This document shows, in pieces, positions 21,962-51,613 of a stretch of 64,000 nt of DNA (positions within the stretch are counted from its first letter, which is position 1; the number at the start of each line of letters is the position of its first letter). Under the pieces are notes generated by a model. The model was not told the origin of the DNA. It saw only the letters and a program-made list of their open reading frames with translations, and did no database searches. The stretch spans positions 1 through 64,000 of the forward strand of contig NZ_GL882692.1 of assembly GCF_000195635.1 (NCBI RefSeq), written 5' to 3'. Origin of the DNA: Bacteroides fluxus YIT 12057 (lineage in GTDB: Bacteria; Bacteroidota; Bacteroidia; Bacteroidales; Bacteroidaceae). Made by a program: the position numbers and the translations under genes.

Positions 21962-21993
21962 AAAAAAGCCCCGTCGCTTGGTGCGACAGGGCT
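21962..21993 (-). terminator. trp operon attenuator (intrinsic terminator)
   Basis: On the minus strand, AGCCCTGTCGC and GCGACGGGGCT form an 11-bp stem (one G-U pair) with loop ACCAA, followed by six U residues. It lies about 50 nt after the leader-peptide stop and 29 bp before the trpB start. A segment AGGG...GCTC at 22032-22045 could pair with GAGCCCT of the terminator and act as antiterminator; that pairing is inferred. Confidence 0.92.
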
Positions 21994-22044
21994 CTTTCTT
22001 ATTCCTTATAATATATTACATATATACATACGAGCACTGCTCCC

Positions 22045-22107
22045 TTACGACTGCCGGAGTTGTAACGGGTGCCACCACCAATATGTATTTACGAATCTTG
22101 TTTTCAT
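22045..22107 (-). CDS. trpL: trp leader peptide with three consecutive Trp codons
   Basis: A 20-residue peptide starts at the ATG at 22107 and contains Tyr-Trp-Trp-Trp at residues 9-12. It lies about 20 nt downstream of the predicted transcription start and is followed by the attenuator hairpin. Ribosome stalling at the Trp codons when Trp-tRNA is scarce should favour an antiterminator and read-through into trpB. This agrees with the described Bacteroid-trp RNA motif of Bacteroidales. A longer in-frame reading to 22236 exists, but it begins upstream of the promoter and is not used. Confidence 0.92.
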   Translation of the reverse strand: MKTRFVNTYWWWHPLQLRQS

Positions 22108-22133
22108 TGTCTTTTTTTGTTTTTGACGGGGGA

Positions 22134-43565: not shown

Positions 43566-44393
43566 TTAAACCGGTTTCTTGTTTTTGGCGATGATATAAA
43601 TAGGGTGATAAGTCAGCGTCACGTTCCCGTCTGCATCAGTGAACTGTCGGATATACTCCTCACAGAACCTTTGCAGCCGTCCGCGTGTCCATATCCTCTT
43701 TTCGGTGCCTGTCACTCCGGTTTGTTTCAGATGTTTCAAGACGGCTTGCGGCGTGGTGAAGGAGAGGGATACAATCTCCTCTTCGGCATGAAGTACGTCG
43801 AAGTGGGGAGCCAACAGTTGTTGAAGGCGCTGGGCGGGCAGATAGTCCAGTCCGTGTCCGGTCAGACGGCGGATTTGATGCATGTTCTCTGTCCCGAAAG
43901 TGCTGAAGGCGAGGATACCGTCCTTTGCCAGTGCATGGTGGCAACGGAGAAAGAAAGCTTCCGGATCATTGAACCATTGCAGGGTGGAACAGGAAGTTAT
44001 CAAGTCCGTGTATTCGGGGAAGTCAAGGCTCTCTGCATCTCCCGGCAGAAAACGGACTTCAGTCTCCGTGCTGCCCTCCTTTCGGGGGATGGCTTGTGCG
44101 GAACAGAGCTCTCCGACGCACTCCTCCATTTCCCGGCAAAGGTCGTTCAGCAATAAAGTGTCGGGTTGCAGCGTCTGTAGCAGGATACGGGAATAACTGC
44201 CCGTGCCGCAGCCGAATTCCACGATGTGCCGGAAACGTGCGGATAGAGTTTCCGGCAGGATATGCTCGGCAGAGTACAGGACATCTGTCAGTATCCGCAT
44301 CATTTTCCCGGCAACCTGTTGTTGTACGCGGGCTTCGCGGGTATAAGTGCTGCGCGCTTTGGCAAAACGTTCGGCTATCAGTTGCTTGTCCAT
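43566..44393 (-). CDS. bioC: Malonyl-ACP O-methyltransferase
   Basis: The protein has 275 aa. The SAM-binding motif IVEFGCGTGSYSRILLQ (about 72-88) is followed by LLNDLCREME, FLPGDAESLDFPE and DLITSCSTLQWFND, the usual BioC order. It methylates malonyl-ACP so that fatty-acid enzymes can build the pimeloyl chain. Its start overlaps bioG by 16 bp. BioC and BioG together supply pimeloyl-ACP. Confidence 0.94.
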   Translation of the reverse strand: MDKQLIAERFAKARSTYTREARVQQQVAGKMMRILTDVLYSAEHILPETLSARFRHIVEFGCGTGSYSRILLQTLQPDTLLLNDLCREMEECVGELCSAQAIPRKEGSTETEVRFLPGDAESLDFPEYTDLITSCSTLQWFNDPEAFFLRCHHALAKDGILAFSTFGTENMHQIRRLTGHGLDYLPAQRLQQLLAPHFDVLHAEEEIVSLSFTTPQAVLKHLKQTGVTGTEKRIWTRGRLQRFCEEYIRQFTDADGNVTLTYHPIYIIAKNKKPV

Positions 44394-45043
44394 AGTTCTT
44401 GCAGATAGTGGCGGAATAGTTCTTCTTGATAGTGGGCGTCTTCCGTCTGCCGTGCCGGAGTCCCTGATGCTTCCCAGGCCTGCAATTGATTGGCGGGCGG
44501 GATGATGCGGTCATTGCTGCCCACAACGGCCTGTTGCCAATGGAAGGTGGCGGGAAGAAGCCTTTTATACATCTTTTCAATCTCTGCCAGTTCGTCGCGA
44601 AGCTCTTCCAGCGGACGTTGCGGGGTGATTTGCAGGAAGGCTCTGAAGGCGGTTCCGTCTGCACACATCCGGCGGAGGAATTTGTGCAGGGAGGCTCCGG
44701 TGAGCCCGTCCAATGTGCCGCGGAAGATGACGGGAGGAATGCCTAAATGTTCGTCGATGGGATAAGGGGTGCCGTTGATGGCAATGCTGTCTGCTATGGG
44801 TAACGACAGTTGCGGTACCACCTGCGAAGCAGCCCACACTCCCATGGACCAGCCGACGATGTTGACCGTCTTGTATTCATCCAGGCCGGACTTGTCAAAA
44901 TCCAAGGTGCGGTAGTCGTAGCATACCATGAAATCACTGCGTTCGGGACGGTAGGTTTTGAAAGGTGTCTCGTCTGCTCCCCATCCGGCAAAGAATAGCA
45001 GCAGGCGGGGATGATGTTCATGTATAATATAAGTCTGTTTCAT
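44378..45043 (-). CDS. bioG: Pimeloyl-ACP methyl ester esterase (BioG, DUF452)
   Basis: The protein has 221 aa and an alpha/beta-hydrolase fold of the DUF452 family. LLLFFAGWGADETPF is typical of the family's oxyanion region, and the nucleophile elbow is VGWSMGVWAA. It removes the methyl ester from pimeloyl-ACP, ending chain extension; it takes the place of E. coli BioH. The 16-bp overlap with bioC supports the pairing. It lies 58 bp after bioF. Confidence 0.92.
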   Translation of the reverse strand: MKQTYIIHEHHPRLLLFFAGWGADETPFKTYRPERSDFMVCYDYRTLDFDKSGLDEYKTVNIVGWSMGVWAASQVVPQLSLPIADSIAINGTPYPIDEHLGIPPVIFRGTLDGLTGASLHKFLRRMCADGTAFRAFLQITPQRPLEELRDELAEIEKMYKRLLPATFHWQQAVVGSNDRIIPPANQLQAWEASGTPARQTEDAHYQEELFRHYLQELWTSN

Positions 45044-45101: not shown

Positions 45102-46289
45102 TTAGCTGATGTGCTTTATCAGTTCTTCTATCTCTTCCTCTCTGATATCCGCTGTCAGTGAAAAGCGGATTCGCGATGTTCCTTCGGGCACCGTGGGCGG
45201 GCGGACCGGCAATGCATAGAAACCGTGCCGTTGTAACTCTTCCGCACGGATCACGGTGTCTGCGCTGGGACCGACCACCAGCGGTACGATGTGGCTTACG
45301 CTGGGGCAGGAATAACCCTTGGCCTCCAATGCTTCGCGCAATGTACGGCTGATTCGGTCCAGATGCTTCCGCTCCTCCTGCATTTCGGGGATTCTGCGTA
45401 TGACGGACAAAGTCCAGGCGATGTTTACGGGAGGCAGGGCAGTGGTGAAAATAAGTGTACGCATGCAGTTTACGAGGTATTCCCGAAGCACCCGGCTGCA
45501 GACAATATATGCGCCTGCCGATGCGCCTGCTTTTCCGAATGTGCCTACCAGAAAGTCTATGTCATGGATGCACCCGGCTTCTTCCGCACATCCCAGTCCG
45601 TGCTTGCCGCGCACTCCGAAAGCGTGCGCTTCATCCACATATAGCGATACGTTACCGTAGCGGTGTTTCAATTGTACCAGAGACTGGAGGTCGGCCCTGT
45701 CACCGTCCATGCTGAATATGCTTTCGGTTACGATGATGACCTGTTGATGGGATTGGGTGTGTTCCTTCAACAGTCGTTCCAACTGGTTCAGGTCATTGTG
45801 GCGGTAGCGGATGCAGCGTGCTGCTGAAAGCCGGATGCCGTCGATGATGCTGGCATGTACCAGTTTGTCTGCCAATATCAGAGTCTGTGAATTGCTTACA
45901 GCAGGCAGGATACCGGTATTGGCATGATAACCGCTGTTGAATACCAAGGCGGCTTCTGTGCCGAACCGTGCGGCCAATTCTGCCTCCAGCTCCTCGTAAA
46001 CGCTGAAGTTGCCCGTCAGTAGGCGGGAGGAGGAGGAAGTGGGCAGGAATGAATCCGGTGTAAGTGTCTGTAAGAAGTCTTCCCTGATCTTTCTGTCTGT
46101 GCCCAGGCCCAAATAATCGTTGGATGAAAGGTTCAGCATCCGCCGGCCGTTTACGATGACTTCCCTTCCGTCGTGTACCATTGAAGGCAGGCGGCGAAGG
46201 TTGCTGTGCGATTCTAATTCTTGGAGCCTCACCCCCAACATGGTTGTCTCATTGTCTTGCTTCTTCATCATATTGTCTTTTATCATCAT
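45102..46289 (-). CDS. bioF: 8-amino-7-oxononanoate synthase
   Basis: The protein has 395 aa and belongs to the alpha-oxoamine synthases. NLSSNDYLGLG, FNSGYHANTGILPAV, SIFSMDGDRADLQ, VDEAHAFGVRG and the PLP lysine in VGTFGKAGASAGAYI are all present. It joins pimeloyl-ACP with alanine to give KAPA. Several Met codons lie near the N-terminus (residues 1, 2, 7, 8 and 17), so the start is uncertain by up to 17 residues. It lies 38 bp after the bioBA fusion gene. Confidence 0.94.
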   Translation of the reverse strand: MMIKDNMMKKQDNETTMLGVRLQELESHSNLRRLPSMVHDGREVIVNGRRMLNLSSNDYLGLGTDRKIREDFLQTLTPDSFLPTSSSSRLLTGNFSVYEELEAELAARFGTEAALVFNSGYHANTGILPAVSNSQTLILADKLVHASIIDGIRLSAARCIRYRHNDLNQLERLLKEHTQSHQQVIIVTESIFSMDGDRADLQSLVQLKHRYGNVSLYVDEAHAFGVRGKHGLGCAEEAGCIHDIDFLVGTFGKAGASAGAYIVCSRVLREYLVNCMRTLIFTTALPPVNIAWTLSVIRRIPEMQEERKHLDRISRTLREALEAKGYSCPSVSHIVPLVVGPSADTVIRAEELQRHGFYALPVRPPTVPEGTSRIRFSLTADIREEEIEELIKHIS

Positions 46290-46318: not shown

Positions 46319-46346
46319 TCTTTTTTATCAGTTCTGACGCACCTCC
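46319..46346. repeat. Half copy of the palindromic repeat at the bioBA 3' end
   Basis: On the minus strand GGAGGTGCGTCAGAACTGA continues into a TAAAAAA run. This matches one half of the element at 23244-23268 at all but one or two positions. It encodes the last residues (EEVRQN and stop) of the BioA part. The opposite arm is missing. Confidence 0.6.
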
Positions 46347-48574
46347 TCGGGGGTGAGGCTGTTCATCAGCCCCCTTGTCAGTTTCGTCAACTGCTCCGGC
46401 TCTATGATAAACGGTGGCATCAGATAAACCAGCTTGCCGAATGGGCGAACCCAGATACCCTCCTCCACAAAGCGCCGTTGCATCCATGCCATATCTACCG
46501 GTGTCTTGGTTTCGATGACACCGATGGCGCCCAATACACGTACATCGTTTACCGAAGGCAGTTCCCATGCAGGGGCGAGTTCCTCCTGAAGTTGCCGGGA
46601 GATGCGGTTGACCTTTCCTTGCCAGTCATATTCGGGAGACGTCAGTAGCCGGACCGATGCACATGCCACGGCACATGCCAACGGATTGCCCATGAAAGTG
46701 GGGCCATGCATGAAGGCGCCGGGCGAGTGGTTGGAGATGGTGTCTGCCACCTCATTCGTCGTCAGCACGGCAGAGAGTGTCATATATCCGCCGGTCAGCG
46801 CCTTGCCTATGCACATGATGTCCGGTTCCACACCGGCATGTTCCCAGGCGAACAGTTTGCCGGTCCGTCCGAATCCCGTCGCAATCTCGTCGAATATCAG
46901 CAGCAGATTGTATTCCTTGCAGAGACGTGCTGCTTCACGCAGATACTGCGGGTGATAGAACCACATGCCGCCTGCACCTTGTACGATGGGTTCGAGGATA
47001 AGTGCGGCCAATTCGTCGTGGTGCCGTTCTATTGTTTCTTTCAGAGGGAGGAGGTCTTCCGGATTCCATTCGCCGTTGAACCGCGAGGAGGGTTGCGGAA
47101 CAAAGTGGCGTACAGGCAATGACGGGCCAAACAGGGAGTGCATGCCTGTCACCGGGTCGCATACGGACATCGCATTCCATGTGTCTCCGTGATATCCGGA
47201 ACGGATGGTTACGAAGTTGTTCTTTTTCTCTTTTCCTTTGCCGTACCAGTATTGCACAGCCATTTTCAAAGCTACTTCTACGGCTACCGAACCGGAGTCC
47301 GCATAAAATATCTTCTGCATGGAGGGCGGTACTAAAGGCAGCAGCAGTTTGCCCAATTCTATGGCAGGGTCGTGGGTCAGGCCTCCGAACATGACGTGCG
47401 ACATCTTGCGCAGTTGCTCTTCCGCCGCCCGGTTCAGTACGGGATGGTTGTAACCGTGTACGGCGCACCACCATGACGACATTCCTTCAATCAGCGTCTG
47501 TCCGCTTTCCAGAGTAATCGTCGCGCCTTCCGCCTGCTTCACCTTATATACGGGCAGGGGATGGGTGGTTGAAGTGTAGGGATGCCAAAGATGCTCGCGG
47601 TCGAACTGCGAATCGCTGAAACGGTAGCCCGCCTCTTCAATCAGCACTTTGTCTTCTGATACCTTGGAGCCGAGCGTGGTCAGCAGATCTCCTACAATGG
47701 CAGAGTTGATTCCTATATGCAGGGCTTTCTTTACTGCTTCTTTGCTCAGCTGCGAACGTCCTCCGGCAAAACGCAGGAAAGCCGTGGGGTTGATGAAGCG
47801 GAACAGTGCGATGGTGGTCAGTATCTCTTCTTCGCTCAGCGGTTCCTGCTTTTCCAATGGGGTGCCGGGAATGGGGCTTAGCAAATTGATGGGGATGGAC
47901 TGGACTTCCAGGTTTTTCAGGGTGAAAGCAAATTCGATACGCTGCTGCATGCTTTCGCCCATGCCGATAATGCCTCCGCTACAGATGTCCATACCGGCAT
48001 TGCGGGCAGCTTTCAGTGTACGCAGCTTGTCTTCCTGGGAGTGGGTACTGCACAGGTGAGGGAAGTAGGAAGGAGCGGTCTCGAGATTGCAGTGGTAGCG
48101 GGTAATTCCGGCTTCGTGCAAGGCGCGCATTTCTTCTTCGTCCAGCAATCCTAACGAGGCGCACAGCTGTATGGACGAGTGTTTACGCATGTGTCGTGCC
48201 GCTTCGCATAATTTTTCCATATTCTTGCTCGAAGGCTTTCTTCCGCTGGTTACCAATGAGAAACGGGCTACGCCTTGCTCTTCGTTGTGCCGGGCATGCC
48301 GCAGGCATTCTTCTTTGCCTACCAGGTCATAGACATCCGCTTGGGTCTTGTAGTGTGCTGATTGTGCACACCATTTGCAATTCTCCGGGCATCGTCCCGA
48401 CTTGGCATTGATGATGGAACACATATCAAATTCCTCTGAGGCCAGGGCTTTGGTTATCCCGTGTGCGGCTTCGTATAGTGCTTCCTTGTCTGGTTGGGTG
48501 GCCAGCCATTCTGCCTGTTCCTCTTTAAGGGAGCCACCTTGCAATACAATTGCTTTCAGTTCGTTTACAGTCAT
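46328..48574 (-). CDS. bioBA: Fused biotin synthase-DAPA aminotransferase (BioB-BioA)
   Basis: The protein has 748 aa. Residues 1-320 form BioB: the radical-SAM cluster motif [25 protein letters not shown] and GGIIGMGES. From about 330 the BioA part begins with [16 protein letters not shown] and continues with [47 protein letters not shown] and the PLP lysine in [14 protein letters not shown]. The fusion joins the third-last step (KAPA to DAPA) and the final sulfur insertion. It is the first gene of the operon, behind a long attenuated leader. Its last codons overlap a repeat half-element. Confidence 0.95.
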
Positions 48575-49050
48575 ATCCTTTTGTTATAAAATGGGTGGAT
48601 AAAAAAGAGGCACGGATTGCCGGAGTCCATGCGGCGCATCGTGTGAGCTGCATGATTCCGGCAATCCGTGCCTGTCCTATTTTTTGTTTCTGAAATGTAT
48701 GTTTCCTGCTTGCCCGTATTTGCATAGGCGCAAGTAACCGGTTCCCGGAACAGTACCTGCAGGTTTGTTCCCGGTTCCATAATCCCGTTGACAAGAGCCG
48801 CTTCGCTCCCTGATGGGATGCCGATATCTGTCTGCCTGCTGTGGGTGATTCCTTTCCAGGTACTTTCTTCGCCGCATCCCGCATGACCGGCAGTTCCCGT
48901 TTTCTTCTGCTTTGACAGTGAACTGTCCGCTACGCTTTTGCGCAGGCAACCGATAGTGACGCATCGGCCTATGCTGGCAAATGCGGCGTAGGCTTTTCTG
49001 CTCCAACGGCGAAAACGGATCGTATTTCCGGTGATTGCGGTACTCTTCAT
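48571..49050 (-). CDS. Possible leader ORF of the biotin operon
   Basis: ATG at 49050, about 28 nt after the predicted transcription start, opens a frame that runs 159 codons and ends at the bioBA start. The first 45 or so residues look protein-like: a basic, aromatic segment [19 protein letters not shown], then [18 protein letters not shown]. The rest reads through the terminator stem and has no protein character. I suspect that only the N-terminal part matters, perhaps as a translated leader that influences the terminator. I have an unverified impression that similar short basic segments occur before other cofactor genes in Bacteroidetes. Confidence 0.4.
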
Positions 49051-49078
49051 GCTTTTTGCTTGATATTGGCTTTTTTTG
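48575..49078 (-). promoter_or_regulatory. Long transcribed leader of the biotin operon (candidate riboswitch or attenuator)
   Basis: About 500 nt lie between the predicted start near 49078 and the bioBA ATG. The leader ends in a strong intrinsic terminator 26 nt before the ATG, with no room for another promoter, so expression of bioBA requires read-through. Internal elements include GGAACA/TGTTCC arms around ACCTGCAGGT (sense, about 48748-48770) and CCGCAATCACCGG (49028-49040). The latter could pair with GATTGCCGG of the terminator. I found no match to cobalamin, TPP or SAM riboswitch signatures. Confidence 0.65.
48601..48673 (-). terminator. Intrinsic terminator in the biotin operon leader
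   Basis: On the minus strand GGCACGGATTGCCGGA (48672-48657) pairs perfectly with TCCGGCAATCCGTGCC (48624-48609), extended to 17 bp by one more A-U pair. The loop is 32 nt and contains a further small stem. UUUUUU follows at 48606-48601. Confidence 0.9.
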
Positions 49079-49084
49079 TGAGTG

Positions 49085-49092
49085 CAAAGATA
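49085..49092 (-). promoter_or_regulatory. Promoter -7 element of the biotin operon
   Basis: TATCTTTG on the minus strand is an exact TAnnTTTG match. A TTTA lies 15 bp upstream; a canonical TTTG at 19 bp is lacking. The start would fall near 49078, before the leader ORF. Confidence 0.6.
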
Positions 49093-49142
49093 GTGCAAAT
49101 TTCCAATTAAACGGGTTTCGGGGGAGTGTGTTTTTAAGGCAT

Positions 49143-49208
49143 AAAAAAAGGCTATCTTCCCAGACAGCCAATCTTTTTGTTAACCTTAAATCTAATACTA
49201 TGAAAAAC
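49143..49208 (-). ncRNA. Candidate small RNA of about 65 nt upstream of the biotin operon
   Basis: A perfect promoter stands just upstream (49215-49245) and an intrinsic terminator closes the unit: GGCTGTCT and AGATAGCC (sense, 49069-offset region 49157-49150 and 49069-type arm 49069 not used; arms at 49169-49162 and 49157-49150) with a 4-nt loop and a run of seven U residues at 49149-49143. The body is AT-rich, with TTAGATTTAAGGTTAAC in the middle, and has no start codon with a useful frame. Transcript ends are inferred. It ends about 30 bp before the biotin promoter, so it is a separate unit. Confidence 0.65.
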
Positions 49209-49214
49209 ACATTG

Positions 49215-49245
49215 CAAAGGTACGGTTTTTATGGTAATCTCCAAA
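49215..49245 (-). promoter_or_regulatory. Promoter of the candidate small RNA
   Basis: On the minus strand TTTG (49245-49242) is followed after exactly 19 bp by TACCTTTG (49222-49215). This is as good as the trp promoter. No gene other than the short terminated unit follows it. Confidence 0.8.
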
Positions 49246-49502
49246 TTCCCGAAGGAAAGGAAGCCCACTTATAACATGGTTTAATAGATGTTGCCGGGTT
49301 GTTAACTTTTAAGATTCTAATCGTTAAAAATCACTTTGTTCATCTATATTCGCGACCGTCATTTAGAAGTGTTTTTATGGTTAGAACTGTGAGTACGATT
49401 ATGAATTGATTCTATGATTAAGTTTAAAATGATAAGTAGGAACGAGGTTTCCTTTTGATAAATAAATAGGCGAAAGGTTAACTTTATGTTCTCAAGAATA
49501 TA

Positions 49503-49537: not shown

Positions 49538-49687
49538 ATGTGTGGAATCGTAGGCTATTATTTCTTTTCCCGACGTCTCGCCCTCATTCATAACGGCATT
49601 CTTGAAAGCTACGCCGTCCTTAAACTGTTTCAAGTCCGCAGCATACATTTAAAAAAAAGAGTTACCTTACGGTGTGCGGAAGCATAG
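49538..49687 (+). pseudogene. glmS: Internally deleted remnant of glmS
   Basis: ATG at 49538 encodes MCGIVGY, the invariant start of glucosamine-6-phosphate synthase with its catalytic Cys2. After seven unrelated residues comes LALIHNGILESYAVLK, which matches the HNGIIENY region found about 90 residues later in the intact enzyme. The frame ends at 49687 after 49 codons. Thus an internal part of the glutaminase domain, and everything after it, has been lost. A functional glmS must exist elsewhere if the cell makes its own amino sugars. It lies 42 bp before the amidotransferase gene and may still carry its promoter. Confidence 0.88.
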
Positions 49688-49729: not shown

Positions 49730-51613
49730 ATGGAACAACTGAAGCATGAATGTGGCGTTGCCATGATACGCCTGCTGAAACCGTTGGAGTATTATGAGGA
49801 GAAATACGGAACTTGGATGTATGGTCTGAACAAGCTCTATCTCCTCATGGAGAAACAGCATAACCGTGGGCAGGAAGGGGCCGGTCTGGCTTGTGTGAAA
49901 CTGGAAGCCAATCCCGGTGAGGAATATATGTTCCGTGAACGTGCGCTCGGCTCAAGTGCCATTACTGAAATCTTCGGTACGGTACAGAGCAACTTTAAAG
50001 ACCTGCCCAAAGAACAACTGCATGATGCAGGGTACGCCAAACGGGTGTTGCCTTTTGCCGGAGAGGTCTATATGGGCCATCTGCGTTACTCTACTACCGG
50101 GAAGTCCGGCATTTCGTATGTTCATCCGTTCCTGCGGCGCAACAACTGGCGCGCAAAGAATCTGGCCCTCTGCGGCAACTTCAACATGACGAACGTGGAC
50201 GAGATTTTTGCGCGTATCACCGCCATCGGCCAGCATCCGCGGAAGTATGCCGATACTTATATCATGCTGGAGCAGGTAGGCCACCGTCTGGACCGGGAGG
50301 TAGAACGCGTATTCAATCTTGCCGAGGCGGAAGGGCTGGCAGGGATGGAGATTACCCGTTATATAGAAGACCACATCGACCTTGCCAATGTGCTGCGCAC
50401 TTCAAGCAAGGAGTGGGATGGAGGATATGTGATGTGCGGGCTTACTGGAAGCGGGGAGACATTCGCTGTCCGTGACCCCTGGGGAATCCGTACCGCATTC
50501 TGGTATCAGGATGATGAGATAGTGGTACTTGCCAGTGAGCGTCCGGTGATACAGACGGCTCTTAACGTACCCGCCGGCTCCATCAGGGAACTGCAACCCG
50601 GACAAGCCATGTTCATCCATAAGGCGGGAAAGGTGCGTACGGTGCAGATCAACAAGCCGCGTGAGGTGAGACCTTGCTCGTTCGAGCGCATTTACTTCAG
50701 CCGTGGCAGTGACGCGGACATTTACCGCGAGCGCAAACTGCTTGGCGAGAAACTGGTTCCCAACATATTGAAAGCCATCGACTATGATATAGACCATACC
50801 GTTTTCTCCTTCATCCCCAACACGGCGGAAGTGGCTTTCTACGGGATGTTGCAGGGGCTGGATGAGTATCTCAACGAAGAAAAGGTCTATCAGATAGACG
50901 CGTTGGGACATGCTCCCGGCCATGACGAACTGGAACGCATCCTGTCACGCCGCATACGGAGCGAGAAGGTGGCCATCAAGGATATCAAACTGCGCACGTT
51001 CATAGCCGAGGGCAACAGCCGCAATGACCTGGCGGCCCATGTATATGACATCACGTACGGCAGTCTCGTGCCCGGTGAGGACAACCTCGTTATCATAGAT
51101 GACAGCATTGTGCGCGGCACTACTTTAAGGCAGAGCATCATCGGTATCCTCGACCGTCTCAATCCGAAAAAGATAGTGATTGTCAGCTCTTCGCCACAAG
51201 TGCGTTATCCCGATTATTACGGTATAGACATGTCGAGGATGAGTGAATTCATCGCTTTCAAGGCAGCCGTTGAATTGTTGAAAGAACGGGATATGAAAGA
51301 TGTGATTGCCGCCGCTTACCGCAAGTCCAAGGAGCAGGTGGGACTGCCCAAGGAGCAGATGGTGAACTATGTGAAGGATATCTATGCTCCTTTCACCGAT
51401 GAGGAGATTTCCGCCAAGATGGTGGAACTGCTGACTCCGAAAGGGACGAAAGCCCAGGTGCAGATCGTCTATCAACCTCTTGAAGGGTTGCATGAGGCTT
51501 GTCCGAAGCATCCGGGAGACTGGTACTTCAGCGGTGATTATCCCACTCCGGGCGGGGTGAAGTTGCTGAATGCGGCATTTATTGATTATATAGAACAGGT
51601 ATATCAATTTTAG
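49730..51613 (+). CDS. purF: Amidophosphoribosyltransferase (long PurF-family form)
   Basis: The protein has 627 aa, against about 470-500 for standard PurF. The nucleophile should be Cys8 in LKHECGVAMIRLL after N-terminal processing. NRGQEGAGLAC, MGHLRYSTTG, LCGNFNMTN and the PRPP-binding loop LVIIDDSIVRGTTLRQS are the expected motifs. It makes phosphoribosylamine from PRPP and glutamine at the start of purine synthesis. A C-terminal extension of about 130 residues (from about 500) has no motif I recognise. It forms a glutamine-using block with carA and carB downstream. A second, standard PurF elsewhere is possible, so the symbol is provisional. Confidence 0.88.
   Translation: MEQLKHECGVAMIRLLKPLEYYEEKYGTWMYGLNKLYLLMEKQHNRGQEGAGLACVKLEANPGEEYMFRERALGSSAITEIFGTVQSNFKDLPKEQLHDAGYAKRVLPFAGEVYMGHLRYSTTGKSGISYVHPFLRRNNWRAKNLALCGNFNMTNVDEIFARITAIGQHPRKYADTYIMLEQVGHRLDREVERVFNLAEAEGLAGMEITRYIEDHIDLANVLRTSSKEWDGGYVMCGLTGSGETFAVRDPWGIRTAFWYQDDEIVVLASERPVIQTALNVPAGSIRELQPGQAMFIHKAGKVRTVQINKPREVRPCSFERIYFSRGSDADIYRERKLLGEKLVPNILKAIDYDIDHTVFSFIPNTAEVAFYGMLQGLDEYLNEEKVYQIDALGHAPGHDELERILSRRIRSEKVAIKDIKLRTFIAEGNSRNDLAAHVYDITYGSLVPGEDNLVIIDDSIVRGTTLRQSIIGILDRLNPKKIVIVSSSPQVRYPDYYGIDMSRMSEFIAFKAAVELLKERDMKDVIAAAYRKSKEQVGLPKEQMVNYVKDIYAPFTDEEISAKMVELLTPKGTKAQVQIVYQPLEGLHEACPKHPGDWYFSGDYPTPGGVKLLNAAFIDYIEQVYQF

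Follow-up and report, generated by a model that had tools for sequence, protein, structure and literature searches.

The biotin operon of Bacteroides fluxus YIT 12057 stands behind a leader that is best explained as a coupled attenuator of the pyrBI kind, in which the nascent peptide of a conserved core would be the sensor, probably stalling the ribosome when biotin suffices. We consider it very likely that the locus is a translated attenuator with coupled transcription and translation, and its architecture as an attenuated leader is well supported by the DNA and its homologues. The complete model, sensing included, is fairly likely; that the ribosome stalls, what would trigger the stall and which way expression would respond are what we infer. 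Because the leader ORF passes through the terminator and ends at the first gene's start, the passage of ribosomes, not a riboswitch, probably decides on biotin synthesis.

Organization of the leader and its terminator

The window, the whole stretch of DNA analysed, comprises 64,000 nucleotides, and the promoter, leader and operon all lie on its minus strand. The leader promoter carries a TAnnTTTG element, TATCTTTG, at 49085..49092, recognized from sequence and kept in 7/7 close leaders; the same element stands 5' of 70 of 88 related leaders, against 7.2 expected from shuffles. The leader ORF (48571..49050, 159 aa), assigned from sequence and homologues, begins with an ATG at 49050-49048 and ends with a TGA at 48573-48571, which overlaps the bioBA start codon (48574-48572) as ATGA. 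Residues 12-48 form a conserved core peptide (48907..49017), defined by profile, codon variety and pN/pS, and are followed by a variable tail (48574..48906) whose frame stays open across the terminator.

The intrinsic terminator, the putative attenuator, lies within the leader ORF at 48601..48673. Its arms, 48673-48657 and 48624-48608, form a perfect 17-bp stem followed by a C and by U6 at 48606-48601, and 26 nt separate the end of U6 from the bioBA ATG. The hairpin has a folding energy of -46.7 kcal/mol and a z of -8.65 against 200 shuffles; a generic terminator scanner missed it because its loops were limited to 3-8. When the terminator was considered as a dispersed repeat, a search of its own genome with 48571-49210 returned, for the terminator part, only the self-match, as a palindrome, and the idea was dropped. 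Behind the leader follow bioBA (46328..48574), which encodes BioB and BioA domains, a bioF-like gene (45102..46289; TIGR00858 at 416 bits, just below its cut-off of 426), bioG (44378..45043; Pfam BioG) and bioC (43566..44393; TIGR02072 above its cut-off).

Much of this layout had been proposed in a sequence-only reading of the window. The TAnnTTTG promoter, the perfect stem with U6 and the distance of 26 nt to the bioBA ATG are all as described there, with the C between stem and U6 added. The leader ORF that it placed before the terminator exists, although it is neither short nor in front, since its 159 codons pass through the hairpin. The claim that expression must depend on read-through also stands: a promoter was sought between terminator and bioBA and no TAnnTTTG was present, nor did the element occur in the final 70 nt before the gene ATG in any of 64 leaders.

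A gene for the FopS sRNA (RF04319, 81 bits; 49140-49210, minus strand) is located directly 5' of the leader promoter on the same strand; a promoter element of its own spans 49222-49215 and reads TACCTTTG. The genome contains at least three further nearly full-length copies of FopS elsewhere, along with several 35-nt pieces. Farther along, on the plus strand, a 49-aa frame at 49538-49684 starts with MCGIVGYY, resembles the start of a glutamine amidotransferase and ends before the gene at 49730; a Pfam search with it matched nothing.

Translation of the leader and selection on its core

The conserved core was followed through 140 loci (L009-L148, with some places represented twice), sorted by the next gene. 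This gene is bioB in 117, bioA in 7 and a TonB-dependent receptor in 14, and two loci reach contig ends; no pyrimidine gene is among them. The plug domain was found by Pfam in 6/6 tested of the 14 receptors, and the other eight were named by eye from sequence. For the analysis of frames 51 loci were dropped, 24 as identical core-to-gene stretches and 27 in which no bioB start could be used (next genes bioA or TonB, contig ends, misplaced alignments). Four of these 27 (L097, L098, L109 and L128) do have bioB, and their leader frames end 8-44 nt before a downstream ATG. The 89 distinct bioB loci that were kept comprise 64 separate leader ORFs and 25 fused cores, which continue in frame into BioB after 10-17 intervening codons.

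In 56 of the 64 separate leaders the first stop in the core frame comes no earlier than 60 nt before the bioB ATG, compared with 4 and 7 in the other two frames and 5.3 after shuffling; the gap is short in six of the 64, which makes an open frame easy to obtain there. Across 42 similarity clusters with gaps above 180 nt, the core frame is open in 38 and the other frames in 2 and 0. An exact ATGA ending is found in 15 of the 64, and eight leaders stop early, 61-335 nt before the bioB ATG. Leaders before bioA and TonB genes are similar, most of those read coming to an end no more than about 60 nt from the start of the gene. In L137 and L148 the leader overlaps its gene by more than 100 nt, and at L070 the start of the receptor could not be placed. 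In 70/89 loci, the in-frame ATG or GTG closest to the core stands 11-13 codons upstream of it. An apparent GTG start is seen in 19/25 fused core-BioB frames (L022, L024, L025, L030-L032, L034 and L043 among them), and the seven close separate leaders start with ATG.

A terminator was detected in 45 of the 64 separate leaders, against 0.6 in shuffles and 10 of 64 on the opposite strand. The scan found none in the other 19, two of which (L012 and L039) have the stem with an imperfect T run; applied to the fused core-bioB loci, it found 0/25. Of the 45 terminator-bearing leaders, 34 have their stop after the hairpin and 11 have it within the hairpin or no more than 4 nt ahead of it, whereas the other two frames reach a stop within 10 nt of the hairpin or beyond in only 2 and 3. 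Translation across the terminator, which defines attenuators of the pyrBI type, is thus read from the frames of 45/45 such leaders, and in the window the ORF spans the hairpin.

The core and the tail of the leader differ sharply in their constraint. Twenty-one pairs of related leaders give a pN/pS of 0.045 for the core against 0.562 for the tail; the pairs were chosen by hand, and six share members of one group. Repeated on 12 pairs sharing no sequence, the values are 0.061 and 0.593. Codons at the majority of conserved core residues are about as varied as pooled usage in 100 sequences, with biased codons at F2, S6 and A14 as the exceptions. Invariant residues of the core are W16, R14-R15 and V31-G34. 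By these measures selection on the core acts at the peptide level, and amino-acid-level selection on a conserved peptide is also the mark of ligand-sensing arrest peptides. The variable tail has an acidic patch 15-30 residues past the core (about residues 63-78), seen in the coding frame only across 58 leaders.

This evidence bears directly on the two regulators that the sequence-only reading had considered, an undescribed riboswitch and a leader-peptide attenuator. A riboswitch or other RNA structure that senses biotin, with the ORF incidental, would account for a long leader with a terminator at its end and for the few biased core codons, and some pairs changed on both sides could be counted for it. 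In a plain count over seven close leaders 18 predicted pairs have changed on both sides, 7/16 in the terminator and 11/68 outside; the latter sit in helices with more broken pairs. Against it stand the low pN/pS of the core with its varied synonymous codons, the leader frame kept open, and the fused loci, which leave only 10-17 codons between core and BioB. Nor did Rfam give support: across 48300-49300 only FopS (49210-49140) exceeded its gathering score, and seven other matches up to E 5 all fell below theirs, in agreement with the earlier finding of no known riboswitch signature. We therefore consider a riboswitch very improbable. The leader-peptide attenuator gains from the same data, namely a frame that appears to be translated and selection at the peptide level.

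The pairing once suggested between the start of the leader (49040-49028) and the terminator fares no better as an antiterminator. The letters are present in the window, but they are not conserved among close leaders: the site reads CAGCAACCGCCAG and CAACACCCACCAG in two close relatives, and the relative with CAGCAACCGCCAG retains GATTGCCGG in its terminator. This candidate was rejected.

Association of the core with biotin genes and a TonB receptor

Relatives of the leader ORF occur in 63/99 genomes of the genus. A profile of the first 48 leader residues (cut E 0.01) matches 84 of these 99 genomes, a few of them weakly, as well as 166/392 genomes of the order and 4/296 in a sample of the phylum, three from the genus of the window and one from elsewhere in the class. 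Niabella matches the core in a named collection. The leader ORF that the sequence-only reading had asked for in orthologous leaders is thus represented by a conserved core, which many Bacteroidales have in front of their biotin genes. The leader is covered by no Rfam, Pfam or NCBIfam family: the 159-aa ORF has no Pfam or NCBIfam match up to E 1, and the core profile matches no PDB sequence up to E 1. In our searches of the open-access literature, titles and abstract starts yielded no description of the leader, the core peptide or a biotin-sensing peptide, and no account of biotin gene control in Bacteroidales. For B. thetaiotaomicron, one report mentions long 5' UTRs carrying short ORFs reminiscent of leader peptides (PMC7366714).

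A link of the leader to biotin, as first proposed, is supported by gene association. Within the genus, bioB scores above cut-off in 67/99 genomes, and the core adjoins it in 62 of the 67. Of the remaining five, one has the core fused on another contig, one has a leader tail beside unread bases, two place bioB at a contig edge, and in one (G045) bioB is present and the core was not found. Three genomes (G057, G067 and G070) have a second bioB match above cut-off with no core beside it.

Many genomes that lack bioB carry the core in another place. It lies at the N-terminus of a receptor-sized frame of the TonB type in 18/32 genomes without bioB and in 3/67 with it (p 1.4e-8), and close receptor orthologues (about 47% identity or more) occur in 23/32 and 3/67, respectively (p 2.6e-12); both p-values ignore kinship, and some of the genomes are incomplete. 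Weaker receptor orthologues add two more genomes to each group, and 7/32 of the bioB-lacking genomes are also without a TonB match at the cut used. The distribution points to a core-bearing receptor that would take up biotin or a precursor. Our searches found no published link between such a receptor and biotin, and one article names BioY and YigM as biotin transporters, its main text not using the term TonB (PMC6593275). On these receptors the core is weaker and covers less, mostly positions 1-38, and an unusual signal peptide is another way to read it. At seven loci (L149, L151, L153, L157, L158, L160 and L167) the core-bearing TonB gene has a divergent neighbour of about 300 aa; considered as a transporter, this 304-aa gene gave no Pfam match in the two copies tested.

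The fusions invite another reading, in which the core functions as a segment of the protein, either an N-terminal BioB extension or a targeting signal, and is no regulator. In-frame fusion to BioB in 25/89 distinct bioB loci would be expected of such a segment, as would a core in the receptor N-terminus before a signal-like stretch. Most loci are nevertheless separate ORFs with terminators, which also stand before bioA and TonB genes. AlphaFold, moreover, predicts the fused core as disordered (residues 1-58 at a pLDDT below 50) ahead of a mostly confident BioB, from a shallow alignment of 24 sequences. We judge this reading improbable, if a little less so than a riboswitch.

Proposed mechanism and comparison with known leaders

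In the coupled attenuator that we prefer, RNA polymerase would start at the TAnnTTTG element with ribosomes translating the leader ORF behind it. Ribosomes that pass the core and keep up would cover the terminator and finish on the bioBA start, so that the operon would be both transcribed and translated. A ribosome stalled or slowed by the nascent core would instead leave the terminator free to fold, and transcription would end. At loci with the core fused to BioB or a TonB receptor, such a stall would act on translation itself and block it directly. Stalling would thus be the OFF state in both forms, which fits feedback by biotin or a derivative. That the same core heads BioB itself in the absence of a terminator makes it the likely sensor. 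As the signal, biotin or a close derivative is slightly favoured.

The model draws on E. coli, in which translating ribosomes repress nearby intrinsic terminators; pyrBI uses this, its terminator lying inside the leader ORF, pyrL, and ribosome-polymerase coupling deciding on read-through (PMC4824070, PMC5021804). The biotin leader differs from pyrBI in having a conserved peptide core, seen in front of different genes and also as part of fused proteins, and in a stop codon that overlaps the gene start. The pyrBI operon responds to UTP via polymerase pausing.

The closest rival keeps this coupling and dispenses with sensing by the peptide: the ORF would set the spacing of ribosome and polymerase, or its initiation would be under control, perhaps that of an sRNA, and conservation of the core would reflect a small functional protein or some other cause. 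It shares the anatomy of an ORF running through the terminator, and both the FopS gene just upstream and the acidic patch in the coding frame of the tail would suit it. It explains less well why the core also heads fused BioB, where the terminator is found in 0/25, and TonB receptors. AlphaFold also folded neither the leader (mean pLDDT 38) nor the fused core with confidence, on shallow alignments of 10 and 24 sequences. Coupling without sensing is accordingly unlikely, though clearly the most credible of the alternatives.

As a sensing peptide, the core can be set beside the ligand-sensing arrest peptides TnaC and SpeFL, which are likewise conserved leader peptides before genes of one metabolite. 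To our knowledge its sequence is unrelated to either. The biotin core is also found fused to the protein that it would control, and stalling, which L-Trp causes on TnaC (PMC8429421), is here a prediction. A run of codons for a single amino acid, as in leaders of the trpL type, was not seen on reading the core and tail sequences. The window does contain a leader RNA of the Bacteroid-trp type (RF01692, 92.6 bits; 21985-22127, minus strand). It too is a peptide-leader RNA of Bacteroidetes, but it belongs to another Rfam family, and the biotin leader does not match RF01692.

Leaders of the MgtL type offer a further likeness, since they contain acidic residues and control transcription through leader translation; their EttA-dependent effects require these residues within the first 30 aa (PMC11282234), whereas the acidic patch of the biotin leader comes well into the tail. 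Destabilization of the ribosome by this patch, which lies beyond that limit, was set aside and is kept as a possibility.

BirA controls biotin genes in E. coli. Unlike the repressor of such bio operons, BirA of this genome (260 aa) has only the ligase domain (PF03099), and Pfam at E 0.01 or better found no DNA-binding domain on it.

More broadly, and tentatively, a family of biotin-responsive nascent peptides may control bioB, bioA and probably uptake through the TonB receptor across Bacteroidales. Its two forms, exchangeable with each other, would be a leader ORF that runs through a terminator and an N-terminal extension of the controlled protein. If so, the synthesis of biotin and its uptake would come under one mechanism in a main order of gut bacteria. 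Strains unable to make biotin would be predicted to have a receptor for it, and a vitamin may be added to the signals that nascent peptides read.
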